A program made the translations under genes and the position numbers. A stretch of 64,000 nt of DNA from Tilletia caries (taxonomy: Eukaryota > Basidiomycota > Exobasidiomycetes > Tilletiales > Tilletiaceae): the NCBI GenBank assembly GCA_032718865.1, contig JALUTQ010000004.1:682001-746000 (forward strand). The letters run 5' to 3'. The notes beneath the pieces were generated by a model. That model did not search any database. It was not told the origin of the DNA and worked only from the letters and a program-made list of their open reading frames with translations. Positions 4,979 through 26,305 of this stretch are shown in pieces. The first letter of the stretch is position 1, and every line of letters begins with the position of its first letter.

Positions 4979-5156
4979 GCTCCGAACCATGTACGACTTC
5001 AGAAACGATACAGACATCAGGCCGAAGAGATCATTGAACACACATATATATTCTTGAGAGCGCGCGCGGGAGAAGAGAGGAGATTGTTGTCGAACAACGA
5101 TTGAGAAATATTCGGAGTCCAAGACTCATATAGTCGCTGCGTTCGTATTTCAGAAC
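4979..5156 (-). repeat. 3'-end repeat, copy A
   Basis: A ~178-bp dispersed repeat that begins with an (a)ccatgtacga segment, then a catatata tract, then an agcgcgcgcgggagaag segment, and ends gcgttcgtatttcagaac. Two hairpin-forming inverted pairs lie inside (gttgt-cg-aacaac and ggagtc...gactc). The same arrangement recurs at 8489-8662 and 25670-25816. Each copy sits just downstream of a minus-strand reading frame. Confidence 0.8.
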
Positions 5157-5264
5157 TGTGCTGCTGGGTGGGGGGACACTGACCGAAGACGGCGTGGTAA
5201 CACTGGTAAGTAATGGAAGCTGGTCCACCAGTGTACGTACCACAGGTCGAGCCGCAATGAGAGG

Positions 5265-6276
5265 TTATGACCGCGGCACCCTGAGGGTAAACAACCCCCG
5301 GCCCAAGTCCACGTCTCCGGATGGCCCGTCTGAGTTTGACCGCATGCGCCGTACCAACCGAAGAACACAGTTTACCTCGTCCGAAATAGTCCGTTCGACG
5401 TTGGATGGCGCACAGATGTTCCCGACCTTGAGGATTCCGAATAACACGCGAGGAATTGGCGGGTGACCGAGGTCTTCTCCTTGGGCCTCTTCTGGGAGGA
5501 GATGACTGAACGTGTGTAATAAGTCTTCCGCCGCTGCCATCGCTGTAATGGAAGAAAGTGTCAGTAGTGTTAAATCGCAGCGTCTCCACTGTACTCACCT
5601 GCGTTATGGTATGGAGTCATGAGAGCCATGCCGGCCTCTCCGGGTCGGGGAAGATTGACGAAGACGAAATGCCTCCGGGTGGGTCCTGGTGTGGGGCTGA
5701 TCGATGTCCCACCAGGGACGCGGGGCGGACAGATCAATGCCGGGACGGAGGCGTGGAGTAAGTTGGCCGTTCCTTGGATGATGTTGTCGAAGTGATCCCA
5801 GTGCTCAAGCGGTGGCGGAATGGCACGTACCCGCGGTGCTCTCGTAGCTGACGTTGCCGGCGTCCCGTTGTATGGAGGGCCGTCGAGAATCGGAAGCAGA
5901 GTCGTTGTCGGGAGGACCGGTCCTTGCGAGGCTCCTTGGAGTTGACGTCCCGGTGGGAAGGTAAAAACGAAGTCTAGGCGTCCGAAACCTGCGACCGTCT
6001 CCTTGACGGCGCGGAGAGCAGAAGGGAAGTCGGCGATGTCGGCGACCACGGGGAGGACGCGCGTTGGTTCCGGTCGAGTGGTGTTCCATGATTGTTGCGT
6101 GAGGTCGTTGATGCAAGGGGCGAGAGCGGCGGGATCGTCGTCGACGAGGACGATCGCGGCGGGCGTCCAAGTCCTCAGTATTGTGAATGCGAGTTAGCGG
6201 ACGAGAGGGGAAGAAGCGTATGTGAGAAGGATGACGCTTGAAGAAGTTTCTGCAGGGGAAAGCGTGGACATAGCGT
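5265..6276 (-). pseudogene. Short-chain dehydrogenase/reductase pseudogene
   Basis: A minus-strand Rossmann-fold SDR relic, two exons joined by an intron 5598-5543 (gtgagtac...ttacag). The frame reads SSVILLTYASSPLVR, an in-frame TAA at 6194-6196, then TWTPAAIVLVDDDPAAL, VVADIADFP, ETVAGFGRLDFVF and, across the intron, MTPYHNAAMAAAEDLL before a stop at 5265. The family signatures are TGxxxGxG, the D-x-x-D/NNAG region and YxxxK. Here the glycines of the first motif are Y and V, the NNAG position is lost and the catalytic Lys of YxxxK is Ala. Loss of cofactor-binding glycines, the catalytic Lys and a nonsense codon together argue for a dead gene. A truncated duplicate lies at 25,870-26,305. Confidence 0.7.
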
Positions 6277-15267: not shown

Positions 15268-17369
15268 CTATGACAGGCGTGCGCGTTTGTGAGGACGGTC
15301 TTCGTCGATGACCGTCTCGCCGACGGGCGAAATTAGTAACTTCCAGTCGTTGTGGCCATGTTCGATAGTTGTTTTCCGAGCGATTGCCTCTAGCCGTGCT
15401 AGTTCGTTCTGCAGATTTGTTGGCAGAGGTGGAGCGTTCAACTGTTTTCGACTGACCTCTCCGACGAGGTAAATATCTTGTCGACGAGTGGCTCTGGATG
15501 CGCTGACATAAGCTGGAAATCCTCCTCGACATAAATCCACGACGACCCCGCCGTGACAGGTGATACCTTGGGCTGAATGAACCGTCATAGCGAATCCAGG
15601 CTGAAGAGGTAGTTGCTGGCGAGAGATGCGATGGACACTGTTCTCCCCGTCGGCAAACGAGAAGCTGAATGAAGACGCGCAGGGGTAGATCGGAAGACAT
15701 CCGCGTTCAAGGCCGCTGAGCTGCCATGTAGCATTATCGTCGAACCGTATGATCGCAACCTTTGGAACAGTGAATCCAAGTCGATCCGTTGTCATCTGCC
15801 AATTGACGATTCTGCCGAAGGCACCGTTCGTGACCCCCAAGGGAATGCTTTGGTTGGGTCCCTTGTAAATGATTGGCATCCCGACAAAGAGTGGTAGTCT
15901 TCCCATTCCAACTTTGGTGTCGCCTCGACCGTTATAGTTGAGCAGCGCCGTGCGAGCCTCGGCATCTAAGACCGCAGACGTGTCATCGATGGCATGGCTG
16001 ATCACCAGATCCTGAGCCTGTACAGAGGCTTGGGAAGCGGCCTTCAGTTCGTTGAGACTGCGCACGGTCTGGTTTGTGGCGGCCAGTACTACCAGATCCC
16101 GCTTGGTTTTGAGCCCAATACCGCTGGCGGAAAGGTAAGGGCGTAGAACGTTGGTATTCAAAAGCCGGGCGTCGTCCTCGGTGCATTGCCGCAGTCGCAA
16201 GCGCGCCAACGCCAGCGCCATATCGTCGTCCTTCATCCTCATTTGCTCAGTGAATTCGACCACGGTGTTGACTGATAACCAGCTTAATCGGCCGAGTTCG
16301 ACCTTCGTCCTGATGTCGCCCGATAATGACGATCGACTTGTCCGCGTGTAGAGTGGGGCGGCACCTACGGGGGGAAGCTGGCATAAGTCGCCGGCGAAGA
16401 TAACGTGCATTCCTCCGAACGGTTCGTCCAGTCGCTGCGTCGCAATCCGTAACGCTTGGTCCATTTCAGAGAACACTTCGCACGATGTCATAGACACTTC
16501 GTCGAAGAGTAGCCAACGTACGGTGCCGAAGGCTTTCTGAAGGAAGTGTAACCGTTTCGCATGGTTCGCCGTTCGGGAAGCCTGTGTCTCGTCAGTTGTG
16601 AGGCCCCGGCGATGGACGTCCAACCCGAACGCGGAATGTTGTGTTTGACCGCCAATGGCAGACGCCGCCTTTCCTGTTGGGGCCAAAAACTTGATCCCAC
16701 TGCCATGCCCAAACCGATCCATCAGCTCGCGTAGCAATCTGACTACCACGGTTTTGCCGGTTCCTGCCTCGCCATGCATCAACATACGCAGTGGTTCGAC
16801 AGTGTTTCCTGGAGATATGCTAAACCGCTCAGTTTAAAGGCGCGCGACGGCGTGAAATGTTGTGTGCTCACCGTGCATGACGTCGAAGAATCGTCGACCT
16901 GCAATGCAGAAGGCCAGTCGTTGTGAAGGTGTCAAGTTCCGCTCCCGCACTAGTTCGTCTAGTAGTGCATGAGGAGGAAGGTCGCGCCAGTGAAGTCGCT
17001 GCGTGGGATGTGCGGGTAAACCGTTGACGAGGTCGAGCACATCGTTGGTTGCCGGTGCTGCGGATACAGGAGTGTCGAATGCGAGCTGCTCTGCCAACAC
17101 ACCAGATGAAGCTGTAGGAACCGTGAGATCCGCACGTGCTTTAGCTTCGAGAAGGTCTTGCTCCTTCTTCCACAACCTCCGATTGACGGCAGATGTGAAG
17201 ACAGGTGCTACAGCAGTCGAGATAGATTCCTGAGAGAACCCAGCGGTTAGTCCAGGACTGAGACGAACTTGAGTGTTTCCGCGGACTGTTCGGCGCGGGA
17301 ATAGAGTAAAGCCTCGACGTTGATATCCGCCATGCTGTCATCTACGGGTTCGGTTCCAGCCGCACGAAC
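15268..17369 (-). pseudogene. Helitron PIF1-like helicase part, split from Rep
   Basis: Continues the Rep frame after TAG. An in-frame Met lies at 17,333 (MADINVEALLYSRAEQ). A further TAA at about 17,249 sits in a putative 35-40-nt intron or a frameshifted spot (around 17,269-17,230). Then 17,229-16,872 and, after intron 16,871-16,809, exon 16,808-15,268. Helicase motifs are intact: GEAGTGKT (Walker A), LLFDEVSM (Walker B), FAGDLCQLPPVG (motif III), FAMTVHSAQG (motif V region) and YVSASRATRRQDIYLV (motif VI). The SF1B 5'-3' helicase would unwind DNA ahead of Rep. Marked as broken because it depends on the TAG and the doubtful intron; it might be translated separately from the internal Met. 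Confidence 0.65.
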
Positions 17370-20300
17370 CTACTGGTCGATCTTGGCGGAGTGGTTGGCT
17401 TCCCTTCGTCTACGCATGAGTTGATCAGCATCGCGGGCATCTTCACATTCGTTGAGTGCAGCCCAGTTAGCCATCGTTTTCTTGGCACGAGGTGAGAAAG
17501 TTGTCCGTTGGAAAGCGGCCTCCCATGTTTCGGTCCTGGTCTTCAGGGCTACTGAATCGCTGAAAGGGATGAAGTGCGCCATCATAGCAGCACAGTATTC
17601 ATCACCGTGCCCTTCAGATCCGTCGCTGCGAGGGAAACGGGATATGATGCATCGAGGAATGCCATGGGTACGGTTGGGTGTGTATCGGTGAATGTACTTT
17701 GGAAAGTTGGGATGTGACGCTCGTAGATCGTGGTGGTTTTTGTTGCGTTTCTTCGGAGGCGGATCCAGCTTAACGTATTGGACGAATTGATAGAACGTGA
17801 GACTCGCCAGAGTCTCCCCTCTATGAAGATAGTCGTCCACTTGATGAGCAAGGCCTTTGGTGTTCAACGGTAGCATTCCGCCTTCATCAAAGCCATCGTC
17901 TTCTTCATCATCGTCTGCGTGTAGATTGGAGCAGCTCGGTTCGTCCACGGTGTCGCGTCCAGGCTGAACCGCAGTTAGGTCTTCCGGTTCGGAAACGGCG
18001 GGAGGATCGTCGTCTGGCGCGCCTGGAGGGCCGGTACTGCCAACGTCGGGCGACGCTCCGTTCAAATCGCGCAGTGAGCCGTACAAAGCAATGACCGTCG
18101 CTACCAATTGGCCACTCATCATCGCGACGGTAGGATGACTCTGTTCGGTGTCACCTAAATCTCGTACGTACGTTGCTGCTTGTTGGGCGTGGACTTGGCG
18201 TTCCCGACCGAACTGCATAACGCACCGTGTGAGGAACGACTGTGCTTCCGTCGTAGCAGATCCCATAGTCGCCATCCGCTCGTAAACCGCATTGATCATG
18301 GAGATCTGATTGGCCGGCGTTTCTTCCGATTTTGTCGAATAAGAGGTGATATAACTAGCGGCAGCAGAACCACTCTGTCCACTCTGAACGGATTTGAGAT
18401 CGTGGTTGTGCCGCGTGGCGACGAGAAGATGTGGATTGTGCCAATTGATGAGAGGGTGTTGGACTCGAAGATGGACGGAATTAGTCTCCAGATCAAACGA
18501 CGAGTCTTGAACGATGTCGTGGGGATACTGGAATCTGCAAGAGGTGCGTCCGCCTTTAAAACATGTAAACGTGTGGCGATGGGTTTGGACTTCGTGGGCC
18601 AGTAGATGGTGATCCGTGTAGAAATCCGTTCGGTAGTCTTCATTCGTAGGGATGGGTGGACGCTCTTGTCGGGGTTTTCTTTTGGTTGGAGCCGGAGATG
18701 CCTGGTCATCGGTACCAGACTGCGGGTACCCGTGGCTGAGCAAATCGTCGAGGAAGTCCAGGTACCGCTGGCGAAATTCCGCATCCGAGCGCATCTTGGA
18801 ACGCAAGTCAGAAGGATTCATCCCTCCTTCCAACCAAATCAAGCAGTGGCAATGTAGCTGCCCTCGCATACTATGTTCCTTAACCAAATAGTACGCCGAT
18901 AGTCTGCCGAATAGTCCGCCGGCGAGGGTAGACTGACCCTTTCGAAGATCCCAACCAAGGAGGTACTGGAAGACGGCCGCGACATGGAAATGAAAGTAAT
19001 CACTGGCGGCAATGGGATCGTCGGCCACACGAATACCGCGATTGTGGGATGTCGGCAGTTCCGGTGATCTGGTGTCGAGGCGGACTGACTTGTCGCCGTA
19101 AAAGATGTGGAACACCGGGGAGTGGTTCGGTCCCGGGTTCAGAGTCAAGAAGAGATGGAAGATCCCATGCTGCCCAACGTACGCCCGTATATCGGCGCGG
19201 GCCCTGATCATGATCGCTCTTGATCCTGGAACATTCGCGGATATGACCTGGCATTTCTTGAGGAGGGCGAATATACGGCGTTCTTCTCCAAGTAGGCTGT
19301 TCAAGGATCCCCCACGTTGAAGGTGGTCGGAAATGCGTTTGACGACTGAAGGGGTGAGAGTTCGCATCATATTTGTGACTTGTTCGTAGTCACGAGCCCT
19401 ACACATGAATCTTGACCCGTTATGAATGGCCCTGCGCTGCTTGATGTTTGCGACAACGAAGACGAAAGACCAATGCCTTCGAAAGGACGGTTCGACCAGG
19501 TCCAGTAGATATTTCGCCTGACGCTGAAGTGATAAGGGGGTTCGCCGCTTGAGTTCGAACCCACCAGTTCCCCAGGGAAACAACGTAGGGAACATGCCCG
19601 GAAAAAGTTCCGGATTGTTGTATTCTTGTACGAAGGTCGTTCCGTGTCGGATAACAAGATCGGGGCGCTCCGTTCCGGTCGCATTGGCAACTGCAGCCGA
19701 CATACGTGAATGGTGAGGGATCATACCGTCTAGGTCGAGTAAACCATGATGTTCGAGGAAACTACGCGGATTGTCTGTTGAGTCGTCGAGCTCGTCCAAC
19801 ATTCCAGGATGCTTGTCGAGACCGGCAGTTTCCCGGGCAAACAAACTCGGGACGTCGGTATGTGTTTCGTGCAGAACATGGCGCATGATAAGTTCAGGAA
19901 CATCGTCTTCCGGGAGCATGCCAAGGGCATTTTCATCGAGAGGAAATTGAGGATATCCCTTGCTGTGCTCGCGAAGGTATAGCAGCAAAGACCGAACCTT
20001 CTCCCTGCGGATTTTGAAGACGTTGCGCAAGTCCTTGATTCGTGGTTTCCGAGGTCCTATCACGATACAACTGATCAAAGGTGCATGAGTGTCGACAGCC
20101 CAAGGAAGCTTTGCCGCTGTTGATATCGTGTTCAATGGAAAGGCACATGCGTGGCCCTTCATGACACGAGGCCGTTCGTCTACCGCCCCGGGAGCGGTTA
20201 AGTCGTATAATCGTACGATGTATGCGGACGCCAAATACCGAGCGCATAGACGTTCCTCTAACCATGTGATATCTTGAAGTTCGACTGGCAAAAACCCTCT

Positions 20301-21234
20301 GATGTTGTCATTGGCGAGCGAAAGAGGAGGAAGCCGTGGAGGATCTCGGTCCAGGTCACGATGACACTGCCCGCATATGTCGAGAGATGCCGCTCCATTT
20401 GCCAGGTGCACTCCGTCCTTGTGTAACGCAAGTCCATCGATGCACGGATCCCCGAATGTGAAGTAGTGTTCCGGGCGTGCCAGAATATGAGGATCCTGGA
20501 TGCGCAGAACGTCGAGGCTCAAGGTTTGAGCATCATACGTCTTGCAGGGCGAGTAGTCGGTAAATAAGATGTCGCGATTGAAAGTGCGTCGACCACAGAC
20601 GGCGCAAGTTTCAGCCTCGCCGATGTTGGTCTCATGCGCAAATTTGAGCATACAATCGTCCTTGACTACGTCCGAGACCGGTTGGGGCCAGGATGGTCCT
20701 GTAAAAGAATGAACTGGTTATTCACCGAACACGACAGGTCTTAAGCAACGGCACTCACCAGCAACTGATTCGCTAACTGCTTGAGATGCCTGGGCCGCTG
20801 TGGGATCGCGCCAGTAAAGCATTTGGACAAGTGGGTATCGCGTCAGTACAGCATTTAGACAATAAATGGAGTAGTGTCAACGTACGGGTGATGGGAGATG
20901 GATGCGCACTGGCGGCAGCTCGCTGGTTGCCCATAAGCGCATGGCGACGCCTTTGTAGGGAGTGCAGGTACAGTGGTACATAACTTCCGTATCGTTCGTC
21001 CAGTTTGCGCTGTACCAGCTGGGCGAATTGGTCGGGCGAATCGATGGCGGCGAACGCAGTGCGGGCCGCACGTTCGTAAAACGAAATTTCGTCTGCAACC
21101 ATTGAATCCAGAAGTAGCGACGATAACTCTTCGCGATTCATACGACTGGCTCGTTTCCGGGGCTGCGCTGCGACGAGGAAGTTCCGGAGGTGAAGAACCG
21201 AGAAGCCGGAAAACAGATCTGTCGATGAGGCCAT
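17370..21234 (-). CDS. Helitron Rep (HUH-type) protein
   Basis: Exons 21,234-20,886, 20,797-20,759 and 20,698-17,370; all junctions preserve frame, giving 1,238 residues. N-terminal cysteine pairs CAVC and CGQC lead into DNIRGFLPVELQDITWLEERL, typical of the Helitron-associated N-terminal domain. The Rep domain has FLTLNPGPNHSP (motif 1), the metal-binding His pair in RGQLHCHCLIWLEGG (motif 2) and the paired tyrosines in SYITSYSTKSEE (motif 3). It should nick and join DNA during rolling-circle transposition. It ends at a TAG that is followed in frame by helicase sequence, so in most Helitrons this would be one protein. Whether the stop is suppressed or a mutation cannot be told from sequence. 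Confidence 0.85.
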
Positions 21235-21928: not shown

Positions 21929-22587
21929 ATGAGCGCTGCAGCTGCGCACACCGAACGGCCACCTACTGTAACGAGTATCCCGCCAATACTCGTTTCACAA
22001 GCCCAAACGATCCAAGGCGCTTATGTCAACTCCGGACGAATGAGCGAAGGCCTTGCTCGTTTACAGTCGACCAAAGTCATGTTCCAACAAGCAGCGAAAC
22101 GAAATTCTACGGCAGCAGAGCAAACAGAAGTCGCGGTGTCTGCTCTGCTGGTGGCTATGCAGACGGACGTGCGTCGCAGGATCAAGTATTCAGAAGCAAG
22201 AATGAGCGATGAGCTCGACGGCGTCAAGATGCGACTCCGCAAAGAAATGGCATGCAATCACGAAACTATCGAGCGGCACCTTCAAGACACAATCAAGATG
22301 GTCCGTAGCGTTATGGAACGTACCCGTGACGATGCGCAAGGTGGCCTGACGGACGCTCTGGACTTCCTCAACGTTTGCGGGCTGAGGCTTCAAGAAGGGA
22401 TCAACAACACTGAGCATGACTATATGGGAAGCTTAGCCCAAATATTAGTGTCCAACGCATGGACAACGGCATGGTGAGTGCAGGGCGAACAACTTACTCA
22501 GCAACGAATACTTACTCACGATTGTCACAGGCCGGAAGCTATCAGAACGGTACAGCAAGTGCAACAAGGCACTAACGTCCCTCCTCC

Positions 22588-22899
22588 TGTGCTGGTGTAC
22601 CACGTGGCTGGACCACGTGTTTCCCTCTTATATCTTATCTCTTATCTTCCTTTCTCTCTTTTCTCGTCACTTCTCCTTCTCTCGGCCGAGAGACTTCTCT
22701 TTCTTCCTCATCACCTTCTCCGCTCTCGCTGCTCTCCCTTGTACTTAGTTACTCTAATCATTCATTCATCTGCACTCTCTTCTCTACACTCTGGCGTTGC
22801 CTTTGTTTCCCTTAGACGTTGTCTCAAGGTTATTGGACGTTGTCCTCTTACTTGTACTTTCCCCGCAGGTCAGTACCCTATCGGCACGCTACCGATACA
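22588..22899 (+). repeat. 5' LTR (312 bp)
   Basis: Begins tgtgctggtgtacc and ends accgataca. Two CACGTG boxes stand 12 bp apart near the start (ccacgtggctggaccacgtg), and a long pyrimidine-rich tract follows; both are plausible promoter features. Matches the 3' LTR throughout with one observed difference. Confidence 0.9.
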
Positions 22900-22911
22900 T
22901 GGTGATGAGAG
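22900..22911 (+). promoter_or_regulatory. Candidate primer-binding site
   Basis: tggtgatgagag lies immediately after the CA end of the 5' LTR. Starting with TGG, it can pair with a tRNA 3' CCA end. The tRNA species was not identified. Confidence 0.6.
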
Positions 22912-23456
22912 TGCCTCTCTCGGTTACCCGAACGACGGACGCTGAGCACCCAACGCCTGGACGCGCAACGACGATCTCGCCAGATCCCGTCTTTCTGCTG
23001 CGCCGCAGCCGCCGGTCAAGCATGCCGCTTTGACCTTTTCTCCGTTCTCGTTCTCGACACGCCGTCGGTACGATTTTTGATACCTCGATTTGCCAGCCTC
23101 CACCTCAAGACTGGTGCTTCTCGGTTCTCGCGTTCGATACGCCATCGATGCGCTTCTCTGGTCCAGCACGCAGCTGTGATCGGCCTCCATTCTGCTCTGC
23201 GTTCGATACGCCACCGAATTGCAACACTCACGCTTGCGCTTTGCCAGCCTCGGGGTCTGCCACTCTGCCGCTTCGACGCGCAGCCGTTCTATCCTTCTTT
23301 ACGCCCGGCCTCATCATTTTCCATTCTCAACACGCCATCGATCATCGTCCATTGATGCGACCCCCTCAGCTCTGGCCCCTGGGTCGTCGACAGTCTCCGC
23401 CATAAGACATCTCTCTCGCCGCTCGCAACGGTTCTTCACCCGATCCGTGCAGAGAC

Positions 23457-23693
23457 GTTGAGGTTGAGAAATCCCTCCCCTCCCAGAACCAGCTCAACGC
23501 CCTCCTCGAGAAGATCAAGCAGTCCCCCGTCCTCAAGGAAGGCACCTTCGACCGCACTTCCGCCCTCTCCGACCAGAGCGCTCGCGTCGTAGCTGACCTC
23601 AAGCGCGTCATCGAGCAGATCATCAAGCTCGGCGACAGCAAGAACGGCGACGACAAGATCCAAGACTTCCTCTACAACTCCATTACCGGGTAG
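23457..23693 (+). pseudogene. Captured host coding fragment, unidentified
   Basis: An uninterrupted, strongly coding-like frame inside the LTR element: EKSLPSQNQLNALLEKIKQS, then SALSDQSARVVADLKRVIEQ and DKIQDFLYNSITG, stopping at TAG 23,691. The alternating amphipathic helices faintly recall the N-terminal helices of fungal HAM1-like proteins, but I would not assign it. An intron-like tail (gtagttg...ctcattgcag, about 23,690-23,769) follows, so part of the captured sequence may be unspliced. The first 22 bp (gttgaggttgagaaatccctc) recur at 23,990, where the second captured segment begins. Confidence 0.5.
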
Positions 23694-24103
23694 TTGTTTC
23701 TGCCTCTATGCGGCGAGTTGAGCTCTCGGACGACTTCGGGACTCACTTCGGGACTTGCGCTCATTGCAGTCCGGAGTCGGCGGCGTGTGGGTAGGAGGGT
23801 TCACGAGAACGGTAGCGCATAGCGGCAGCAAGTCGGGTTGCACGCGGGCCACAGCCATGGCCTATCAAAGCCTCCCAATTGTGCCCTTGCGCGATCTCAC
23901 TATCTCTCCTCAAGAAATCGCTTACTTCATCCACTATCCATCTCGCACTGGCAACAGCGTTTTCCGCGATCCGTGGCCCCCGCGCATGTGTTGAGGTCGA
24001 GAAATCCCTCCATCCAGCAGAGCACTCAGACTGCTCGCACCTCCAGTCACTCTCCGTCCTCTCATACCCGTCCGCGTCGAGAATTCGCACATTCCGCTCC
24101 GAG

Positions 24104-24776
24104 ATGGCTTCCCTCGCTCGCTCCGCTCGCCCCTTGGTGGGTGCCGCTGCCCCCTGGCTGCTGCTCGCTCCTTCTCCGCCTCCGCAGCACAACAAGCCAC
24201 TTAGCCACCCTCCGTGAGCTTGAGCAACGAGTCAAGTCGGTCCGGAACATCGAGAAGATCACCAAGTCCATGAAGATGATTGCAACCACCAAGCTCAACA
24301 AGGCCACCACTGCCATGCAGGCTGCCAAGGTCTACGGCAAGGCCAACGGTGAGATCTTCACTAAATCCGAGGCCCTTGCACCATCCGGTGGCCGAGAGCT
24401 CTTCATCGTCGTCTCCTCCGACAAGGGTCTCTGCGGCGGTATCCACTCCTCCGTCTCCAAGCGGACCCGTGCCGAGCTCGCCAAGATCAGCCTCACCGCC
24501 GCCAACCCGGACTCGCCCGAGGGTCCAGCCATCGTCGTCCTCGGCGAGAAGTCCAAGGCTCAGCTACAGCGTTCGTTCAAGAAGAACCTTGCCCTCTCCT
24601 TCTCCCAGGTCGGCCGTGATGTGCCTACGTTTGCGGATGCGGCTGCCATTGCCGACATGATCTTCAAGTCGAACCTCAAGTTGGACAAGGTGAACATCGT
24701 CTACAACAGTCAACAAGTTCCTTTCTGCGCTCTCCTTCGAGTCCGACATCCTCGAGGCTTTCAGCGAGAAGGCTCT
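24104..24776 (+). pseudogene. Captured ATP synthase gamma subunit fragment
   Basis: From the ATG at 24,104 (MASLARSARPLVGAAA, a mitochondrial presequence) with later frameshifts through ARSFSASAAQQAT, then a long clean frame 24,201-24,707: LATLRELEQRVKSVRNIEKI, TKSMKMIATTKLNKA, ELFIVVSSDKGLCGG and KVNIVYN. These are hallmarks of the F1 gamma subunit N-terminal half (the shaft helix and the Rossmann-like domain). A 7-nt insertion near 24,708 shifts frame, after which the other frame still codes ALSFESDILEAFSEKALRDA; the C-terminal helix is missing. The native gene would rotate within F1 in mitochondria. This copy lacks the C-terminal shaft and has several shifts, so it is not functional as gamma. 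Confidence 0.85.
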
Positions 24777-24885
24777 CCGAGACGCACCCTTTCCTCCATA
24801 CCCCTCTTTCCACCTTCCTTCTCTCGTTCGTCCGCCTCACTCCTCATCGTTTACTCTTCATGCCGACTCGGGACAGTCGTCTTCT

Positions 24886-24896
24886 AAGGGTGGGCA
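24886..24896 (+). promoter_or_regulatory. Candidate polypurine tract
   Basis: aagggtgggca lies directly before the TG of the 3' LTR, the position where plus-strand synthesis is primed. It is short and interrupted by one T, so it is only a candidate. Confidence 0.55.
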
Positions 24897-25208
24897 TGTG
24901 CTGGTGTACCACGTGGCTGGACCACGTGTTTCCCTCTTATATCTTATCTCTTATCTTCCTTTCTCTCTTTTCTCGTCACTTCTCCTTCTCTCGGCCGAGA
25001 GACTTCTCTTTCTTCCTCATCACCTTCTCCGCTCTCGCTGCTCTCCCTTGTACTTAGTTACTCTAATCATTCATTCATCTGCACTCTCTTCTCTACACTC
25101 TGGCGTTGCCTTTGTTTCCCTTAGACGTTGTCTCAAGGTTATTGGACGTTGTCCTCTTACTCGTACTTTCCCCGCAGGTCAGTACCCTATCGGCACGCTA
25201 CCGATACA
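24897..25208 (+). repeat. 3' LTR (312 bp)
   Basis: Same length and ends as the 5' LTR (TG...CA). One base differs by eye. Followed by target duplication CCTCC at 25,209-25,213. Confidence 0.9.
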
Positions 25209-25298
25209 CCTCCCCAATACGGAGACGATGTACGGCCCACGAACGCGGATCGAGGAACCACGGCTCCTTCGGCCAGTGAAGACGAGGTGGCGACTTGA

Positions 25299-25669
25299 TC
25301 GATATATGTTACGGGCCCCTGTACGGAGACAATAGGAACTGGCATCTCAGAATTGACGACCAGGGAATGCGAACTTCATTCTGCATGTGAGTTTTTACCT
25401 TCCCTGAAGCGGTACGATTGGTGGGAGTGTGCTGCCGTTACGATACGTATACCATATGCGAATACTAGAATATGTAATGGAGAGTATGGCATTGAACATT
25501 GTAGTGGCGGACATCCAATGCGAAAGGTGAAGAAGTTGGAAGGGGAAGGCAGCGGATGACCTGATTCTGCCAACTTCTTCTTGGGCGATGGATGCTCCGC
25601 GTCTGCTTCAGCCTGCACATCAGCTGCAATGGTTGTACGAGGAAGCCATGCAATCCGACGAGAGTGATG
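25299..25669. other. No recognisable gene
   Basis: The 3' flank of the disrupted coiled-coil gene. Small frames only. Confidence 0.35.
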
Positions 25670-25816
25670 CAGACATCAGGCCAAAGAAATCATTGAACAC
25701 ACATATATTTTTCCAAGAGCGCGCGCGGGAGAAGATAGGAGGTTGTTGTCGAACAACGATTGAGAAAGATTCGGAGTCCTAAGACTCATATTGTCGTTGC
25801 ATTCTTGTTTCAGAAC
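25670..25816 (-). repeat. 3'-end repeat, copy C
   Basis: The third sizeable copy of the repeat at 4979-5156, closest to copy A (cagacatcagg, catatat, agcgcgcgcgggagaag, ggagtcctaagactc). It ends in a diverged gcattcttgtttcagaac. Unlike copy B, it continues rightwards as a duplicate of the SDR pseudogene end. A run of 16 G's follows at about 25,826. Confidence 0.75.
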
Positions 25817-25869
25817 GGTGCTGCTGGGGGGGGGGGGGGGGGTAACTGGACGAAGAGCGCGTGGCAACA

Positions 25870-26305
25870 CTAGTAAGTAATCGAAGCCGATTCACCAGTG
25901 TACGTACCACAGCTCGAGCCGCAATGAACGTTTATGATCGCGGCACCCTGAGTGTAAACAGCCCCTGGCCCAAGTCCACGTCTCCGAACGGTCCGTCTGA
26001 ATTTGACCGCATGCGCTGGACCGACCGAAGGACACAGTTCACCTCGTCCGCAATAGTCCTTCGACGTTGGATGGCGCACAGATGTTCCCGACCTTGAGGA
26101 TGCCGAACAGAACGCGAGAATTTGGCGGGTGACCGAGGTCTTCTCCTTGGGCTTCTTCTGCGACGAGATGACTGAAGGTGTGTATCCGTACTCCGCCCCT
26201 GCCATCCCTGTAATGGAAGAAAGTGTCAGTAGTGTTGAACTCTCAGCGTGTTGACTGTGCTCACCTGCGTTATGGTATGGAGGCATGAGAGCGATGCCGG
26301 CCTCT
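25870..26305 (-). pseudogene. Truncated duplicate of SDR pseudogene
   Basis: Homologous to 5205-5640: it keeps GIALMPPYHNA, the intron (gtgagcac...ttacag, about 26,263-26,209) and the frame HTFSHLVAEEAQGEDLGHP and LFGILKVGNICAPSNVE, but a small deletion after NVE shifts frame. Homology begins abruptly at about 26,305, so only the 3' end of the SDR relic was copied. Because the intron is retained, the copy arose at DNA level. Confidence 0.7.

Follow-up and report, generated by a model that had tools for sequence, protein, structure and literature searches.

A young LTR element in Tilletia caries belongs to a family carrying different pieces of spliced host mRNAs

The window analysed here is a 64,000-nucleotide stretch of the Tilletia caries genome (positions 682001-746000 of contig C4; GC content 56.1%). 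At 22588-25208 it contains a young LTR element of 2,621 bp, hereafter E1, which interrupts a host gene and carries pieces of a HAM1_N-domain gene and of ATP3, the gene for the gamma subunit of the mitochondrial F1 ATP synthase. The genome searched for related sequences comprises 38.1 Mb in 40 contigs. Chance is ruled out as an explanation for E1 because copies of its LTR and matches to its source genes occur elsewhere in this assembly. The features of the locus, in window coordinates, are as follows.

21929..22587, + strand: interrupted host gene, with exon 1 at 21929-22473 and exon 2 starting at 22531 and cut by the insertion
22583..22587, + strand: left copy of the target site duplication of E1, CCTCC
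22588..22899, + strand: 5' LTR, 312 bp, TG...CA, defined by repeat comparison and genomic matches
22900..22913, + strand: putative primer-binding site, TGGTGATGAGAGTG, common to the gypsy copies except for one base in the copy on C5
22900..23407, + strand: untranslated leader whose short repeats around TCGAYACGCCATCGA may form small hairpins
23408..23484, + strand: module 1, resembling a module of other repeats (81-83% identity), with the motif at 23457-23482
23476..23681, + strand: captured piece of a HAM1_N-domain gene, beginning in mid-coding sequence, 99% identical to C3:858103-858308
23682..23989, + strand: stretch matched only by E2, the copy on C3; source not found in the genome search
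23990..24015, + strand: second copy of the motif
24023..24789, + strand: captured intron-less ATP3 cDNA, comprising the 5' UTR and the coding part as far as the 3' end of exon 3
24782..24789, + strand: ACGCACCC, 8 nt shared by spliced ATP3 (at exon 3/exon 4) and the E5-like 3' part
24790..24896, + strand: 3' part also present in E5, closing with the tail CTCGGGACAGTCGTCTTCTAAGGGTGGGCA, which includes a purine-rich stretch
24897..25208, + strand: 3' LTR, 312 bp
25209..25213, + strand: right copy of the target site duplication, CCTCC
25209..25298, + strand: remainder of host-gene exon 2 to the TGA, its first five bases being the duplicated target

The element and the gene it interrupts

Each LTR of E1 runs from TGTGCTGG to CCGATACA, and the two differ solely at position 266 (T/C). 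On re-measurement, everything that a sequence-only reading of this locus had described for the repeat pair (length, TG...CA termini, a single mismatch and CCTCC at both flanks) agreed. The TGG and the purine tract that it had noticed correspond to TGGTGATGAGAGTG, directly 3' of the 5' LTR, and AAGGGTGGGCA, directly 5' of the 3' LTR. These putative primer-site and purine-stretch sequences are correctly placed and are common to the gypsy copies described below; an ARAGORN scan of the 64-kb window alone found no matching priming tRNA. No retroviral-type (gag/pol) frame was seen among the interior frames inspected, with Pfam run on the two host-like ones, in keeping with the earlier description of an interior devoid of such proteins.

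When the flanks of E1 are rejoined with a single CCTCC, a frame of 228 amino acids results. Its best match is a Tilletia controversa protein of the same length (P0001), which is 92% identical over the full length and is uninterrupted across the insertion point. The host ATP3 protein is identical to its T. controversa counterpart (P0006) save for an N-terminus added in that model, and P0001, at 92%, may therefore be a paralogue. In DNA sequence, no example was observed of the empty site that the sequence-only reading had proposed to seek. A predicted T. caries protein in the public record (P0003), encoded on a 5,929-bp contig, fuses residues 1-148 of the interrupted gene to the HAM1 piece of E1. 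The length of this contig fits a different assembly, and the insertion is therefore probably not an assembly error.

Two further features lie in the window. A Helitron occupies 15271-20717 on the minus strand, with frames for PIF1 helicase and for Helitron_like_N with DUF6570. A direct repeat of about 640 bp (5007-5639 and 25666-26305) consists of pieces that are 86-92% identical and 20.66 kb apart.

Host-gene pieces inside E1 and its sister elements

The frame at 23406-23693 scores as HAM1_N (PF19343) by Pfam and is taken to be the 78-codon host frame that had previously been left unnamed. The gamma-subunit part matches positions 1-172 of 285 in PF00231, as expected from the roughly 170 codons originally recognized, and its presequence is indeed damaged. 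Lesions of -1 and +8 nt, together with a 41-nt gap without GT..AG ends in the 5' UTR, are common to E1 and E2; E1 alone has an additional +7 nt. The ATG at 24104 is out of frame with the mature part. With these frameshifts (-1, +8 and E1's +7 nt) and the out-of-frame start, the ATP3 piece as read is non-functional.

An intact, intron-bearing ATP3 gene begins at position 1720899 of C4, about 1 Mb from E1 (best match, E 2e-207). The gamma piece is therefore not the sole ATP3 locus, an outcome that had been set as a test of the capture idea. In both E1 and E2 the 5' UTR intron and the next intron are excised exactly, and the 3' end of the captured sequence crosses the join between exons 3 and 4. 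The exact absence of these introns identifies spliced mRNA as the origin of the piece. Each copy differs from the host gene by 11 coding substitutions, eight of which fall at third positions. Constraint on the host gene, or an older source, may account for this bias, which is no sign of function within the element.

The LTR of E1 has at least 40 genomic matches among the matches listed (40 of 82 first-look candidates were scored). C1, C30 and C32 each carry a solo LTR of full length bordered by a 5-bp duplication. The expectation that the LTR occurs elsewhere is thereby borne out, and the following sister elements were examined.

E2: C3:281171-284290, target site duplication AAAAC
E3: C19:308106-311860
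E4: C28:868938-871473
E5: C13:266425-269125
E6: C13:516984-519551
E7: C13:576947-579127
E8: C15:692523-695169
E9: C4:1029852-1032972

Perfect 5-bp target site duplications flank five of the nine elements (E1-E5), as well as the gypsy element on C5 and the three solo LTRs; the duplication of E9 is imperfect, E8 has none, and the LTRs of E6 and E7 are damaged. The LTR pairs of E1-E5 and E8 differ by one or two substitutions, with small gaps as well in E2, E4 and E8. The LTRs of E7 are identical over the comparable 138 bp, those of E9 are 99.2% alike over 251 bp, and those of E6 are 95.2% alike over 167 bp.

E2 carries the same cargo as E1, at 98.2% identity across positions 886-2621 of E1, at a separate site, and the assembled element therefore moved after capture. 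The sequence of E2 5' of HAM1 is unlike that of E1, so later recombination is needed as well. Beyond this pair, four of the remaining seven copies (E3, E5, E7 and E9) carry pieces of other host genes, and three (E4, E6 and E8) carry sequence for which no source was recognized. The recent activity and the transduction of host sequences that the sequence-only reading had proposed are supported by the near-identical LTRs, the second site for the E1 cargo and the other genes in sister copies.

E3 and E5 contain pieces of a kinase-like gene on C10 (named from a weak Pfam kinase match), of NOG1 on C35 (NOG1_N by Pfam) and of a PRA-PH/HIS4-like gene on C34. The last name is taken from a PRA-PH match (PF01503) in a single piece; Pfam gives nothing for the 5' piece of the source gene. 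E5 also has later kinase pieces, and its NOG1 and HIS4-like pieces are thus nested within kinase sequence. The cargo of E7 derives from a cytochrome-b5-domain gene at C15:717174-718466, which we take to be SCS7-like, and E9 holds a 278-bp piece of the same source gene at 94.6% identity. Cargo and source are between 87% (one kinase piece) and 99% identical. The genome search gave no source for the cargo of E4 (1,500 bp queried), that of E6 or part of that of E1, and none was found for the E6-like part of E8 when E8 was compared with the loci already gathered. E1 is therefore one member of a family in which the cargo differs from copy to copy and has been captured from spliced mRNA at short overlaps.

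Two of the sister loci show additional features. C13:42090-42860 reproduces the first 771 bp of E5 at 99.9% identity and shares its 5' flank, but has the opposite orientation, which suggests an inverted duplication on C13. E3 contains, at C19:310056-310770, an inserted repeat of about 720 bp that has 39 or more further copies, 93-99% identical.

Joining of the pieces and a candidate helper element

In the SCS7-like piece of E7, as in ATP3, two introns are excised exactly; the kinase intron is absent from the cargo by coordinates alone. Four junctions can be read from both sides, and all show overlaps of 5-8 nt: ACGCACCC (8 nt) between the 3' end of ATP3 and the E5-like end, TCAGCTC (7 nt) between kinase and NOG1, and CCCGC (5 nt) and CCCTTC (6 nt) at the 5' and 3' ends of the SCS7-like piece, the latter two being read against E6, which lacks the gene. 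The 5' junction of HAM1 has an overlap of only about 3 nt. Overlaps of this kind, seen at four junctions, would fit jumps of reverse transcriptase between RNAs in one particle.

The elements also share their cis-acting ends with a full-length gypsy-type copy at C5:1301082-1307935, whose LTRs are identical over 422 bp and which is flanked by the target site duplication CGAGC. The 3' part of its LTR is 93.6% identical to that of E1 and, over 136 nt, 100% identical to those of E3 and of the 3' LTR of E2; the C5 element and the E1 family also have in common the start of the leader and a similar 3' tail. A reverse transcriptase match lies between its two read ends (the element ends and this match having been read), and it further includes an RNase H match above the cut-off and an SH3_Tf2-1 match below it. 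Its first frame, of 499 amino acids, has no Pfam match and is a putative gag by position alone. A putatively autonomous relative sharing LTR ends, which had been named earlier as something to look for, therefore exists in this genome, and the C5 element is the likely helper of the E1 family, judged from these shared ends and its reverse transcriptase match. Within it, at C5:1301251-1302750 on the minus strand, a single open frame has the RNase H match (PF17917) after an integrase-end-like stretch and the weak match to SH3_Tf2-1, an arrangement that is unusual.

Other gypsy-type sequences are present. In the C7 copy, as read, the 5' LTR leads into the same start of the leader, C15 has two gypsy-type LTRs but is apparently rearranged, and C4:1879205 and a sequence on C22, which have the same flanks, appear to be solo LTRs. 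Hairpins in the leader exceed the shuffle mean in eight of the nine elements. Their candidacy as a packaging signal was dropped, the copies being related, E7 having none and the C5 element lacking the TCGA form.

With high confidence, we read E1 as a non-autonomous Ty3/gypsy-type LTR retrotransposon of a gene-capturing family whose parts were joined by template jumping of reverse transcriptase. The element RNA would keep only the signals needed for copying, namely the LTR, the leader with its primer site and the 3' tail with its purine stretch. Proteins of the related full-length gypsy element would package and reverse transcribe this RNA in trans. Inside the particle, reverse transcriptase would occasionally jump at short matching stretches, leaving the element RNA for a spliced host mRNA packaged alongside it and then returning, or moving onto another element RNA, and the product, with host pieces between its LTRs, would integrate as a new element.

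The strongest competitor holds that broken element DNA was repaired with cDNA fragments by microhomology-mediated end joining. Repair with cDNA from spliced mRNA has been reported in mouse zygotes, according to the available portion of that study (PMC4516963), and the short overlaps at the junctions suit end joining and template jumping alike. However, end joining requires free cDNA and several successive repairs within elements, and the fusion of two host sequences (kinase and NOG1) and the shuffling between elements are, as a matter of weighing, simpler to obtain from co-packaged RNAs. We therefore regard this route as quite unlikely.

A second alternative, that LINEs made processed pseudogenes which inserted into existing LTR elements, has a precedent in the chimeric retrogenes produced by LINE template jumping in Magnaporthe grisea, as described in the accessible text of PMC2104539. 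The marks of such insertions are missing here, however: runs of seven or more A residues occur in just one of the nine elements (E3, within its high-copy repeat), with no poly(A) tails across the nine; the cargo stops in mid-coding sequence at short overlaps with element sequence; and in the one comparison made for this feature, E7 against E6, there is no extra target duplication. This origin is very improbable. Capture at the DNA level, with genomic DNA copied into the space between the LTRs by a Helitron or a Mutator-like process, is very improbable as well: there is a Helitron at 15.3-20.7 kb of the window (Helitron_like_N and PIF1 frames) and DNA-level capture by fungal Helitrons is on record in the part of PMC4289320 available, but the ATP3 and SCS7-like pieces have lost their introns exactly rather than being the intron-bearing genomic cargo expected of Helitrons or Pack-MULEs, which refutes DNA-level capture for these pieces, and the LTRs and 5-bp duplication of E1 are intact.

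Under the template-jumping reading, E1 would have originated when ATP3 mRNA was joined to the end of an E5-like element. The first bases of the 3' part common to E1 and E5 are kinase-derived in E5. Elements with the ATP3/HAM1 cargo would afterwards have inserted at no fewer than two sites, on C3 and C4.

A recurrent motif and the relation to known systems

A 26-nt motif, GTCGAGGTCGAGAAATCCCTCCGC, is present in all nine elements (eight at no more than six mismatches, E4 at seven) and in two further diverged members, and is absent from shuffled elements. Its 19-nt core has 50 genomic matches at up to two mismatches, compared with one for the reversed control; some of these fall in unrelated repeats. 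Counting duplicate captures, there are 15 cargo 5' junctions, of which 11 have a motif copy no more than 120 nt upstream and six no more than 40 nt upstream. Both cut-offs were chosen post hoc, after the data had been seen, which makes these counts a lead rather than proof. With duplicates dropped, the counts against random placement are 7/11 within 120 nt (p 7e-5) and 4/11 within 40 nt (p 7e-4). Leaving out E1 and E2, where the motif was discovered, they become 5/7 (p 4e-4) and 2/7 (p 0.035), respectively. The junctions that lie elsewhere are, in E2, those of HAM1 and a NOG1 bit, in E3 that of the second HIS4-like piece, and in E5 that of the second kinase piece.

One possible interpretation, which we consider doubtful, is that GTCGAGGTCGAGAAATCCCTCCGC serves as a dedicated capture site. 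It would be a preferred landing site for reverse transcriptase, with host-mRNA pieces being joined 3' of it and motif-headed cassettes accumulating through recombination between elements. A tRNA- or SINE-type B box was set aside as an identity for the motif, Rfam having given nothing; its two matches across four loci were far below gathering scores and are taken as chance. Folding of four module copies indicated weak stability (z -1.3 to -2.2) and no common structure by eye.

A 98-bp module whose copies are about 92-95% alike is found within other repeats: C30, C19 and C23 have it as inverted pairs separated by about 7.8 kb, C5 has such a pair at 12 kb, and C39 has one copy. We presume that these repeats resemble KDZ-type transposons. 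Motif matches with two mismatches at C3:556407, 558726, 561044 and 563362 are spaced by about 2,318 bp, which suggests a tandem array.

The closest precedent for E1 is maize Bs1, an LTR element that, in the available part of its description (PMC13317346), carries sequence from three host genes, one of them a proton ATPase gene, consistent with the parallel drawn at the outset to a plasma-membrane ATPase piece. E1 likewise has intron-less host cDNA between LTRs and a source gene elsewhere. In contrast to the plant element and its plasma-membrane ATPase, the E1 family resides in a fungus, its cargo varies between copies, and the ATPase sequence is that of mitochondrial F1 gamma. Capture is also what E1 shares with the 672 and 1,343 host genes found in LTR elements by a plant survey, which differs in being genome-wide and botanical, and whose accessible part makes no mention of a common motif before the cargo.

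Two fungal systems are comparable in other respects. The M. grisea retrogenes (PMC2104539) likewise involve RNA template jumping in a fungus, with preferred sites, but a LINE there joins noncoding RNA, SINE and LINE sequences, and the text available reports no micro-homologies at the joins. In Dothideomycetes, an intron-less histone H3 gene was amplified by a fungal transposon (PMC6710886); unlike E1, the carrier described in the accessible text is a hAT DNA transposon with one gene, whose copies were inactivated by RIP. The main text of 'LTR Retrotransposons in Fungi' (PMC3248453), as available, contains neither a word beginning 'captur' nor the phrase 'host gene'. Gene capture by LTR elements is thus known in plants and LINE template jumping in a fungus. 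Among the titles listed in the literature searched, mostly of the non-subscription kind, there was no young fungal LTR family whose spliced host-gene pieces vary between copies.

Gene pickup by LTR elements has mostly been reconstructed from old cases. The E1 family is young and resides in a compact genome; its cargo differs between copies, its sources are extant at 87-99% identity, and E6 provides a gene-less comparator for E7. The joining step can be followed at single-nucleotide resolution. If the motif does act in capture, it would be an RNA-level analogue of cassette collection. Insertions of the E1 type may also be a route to chimeric genes in this fungus, as the predicted fusion protein P0003 would illustrate.
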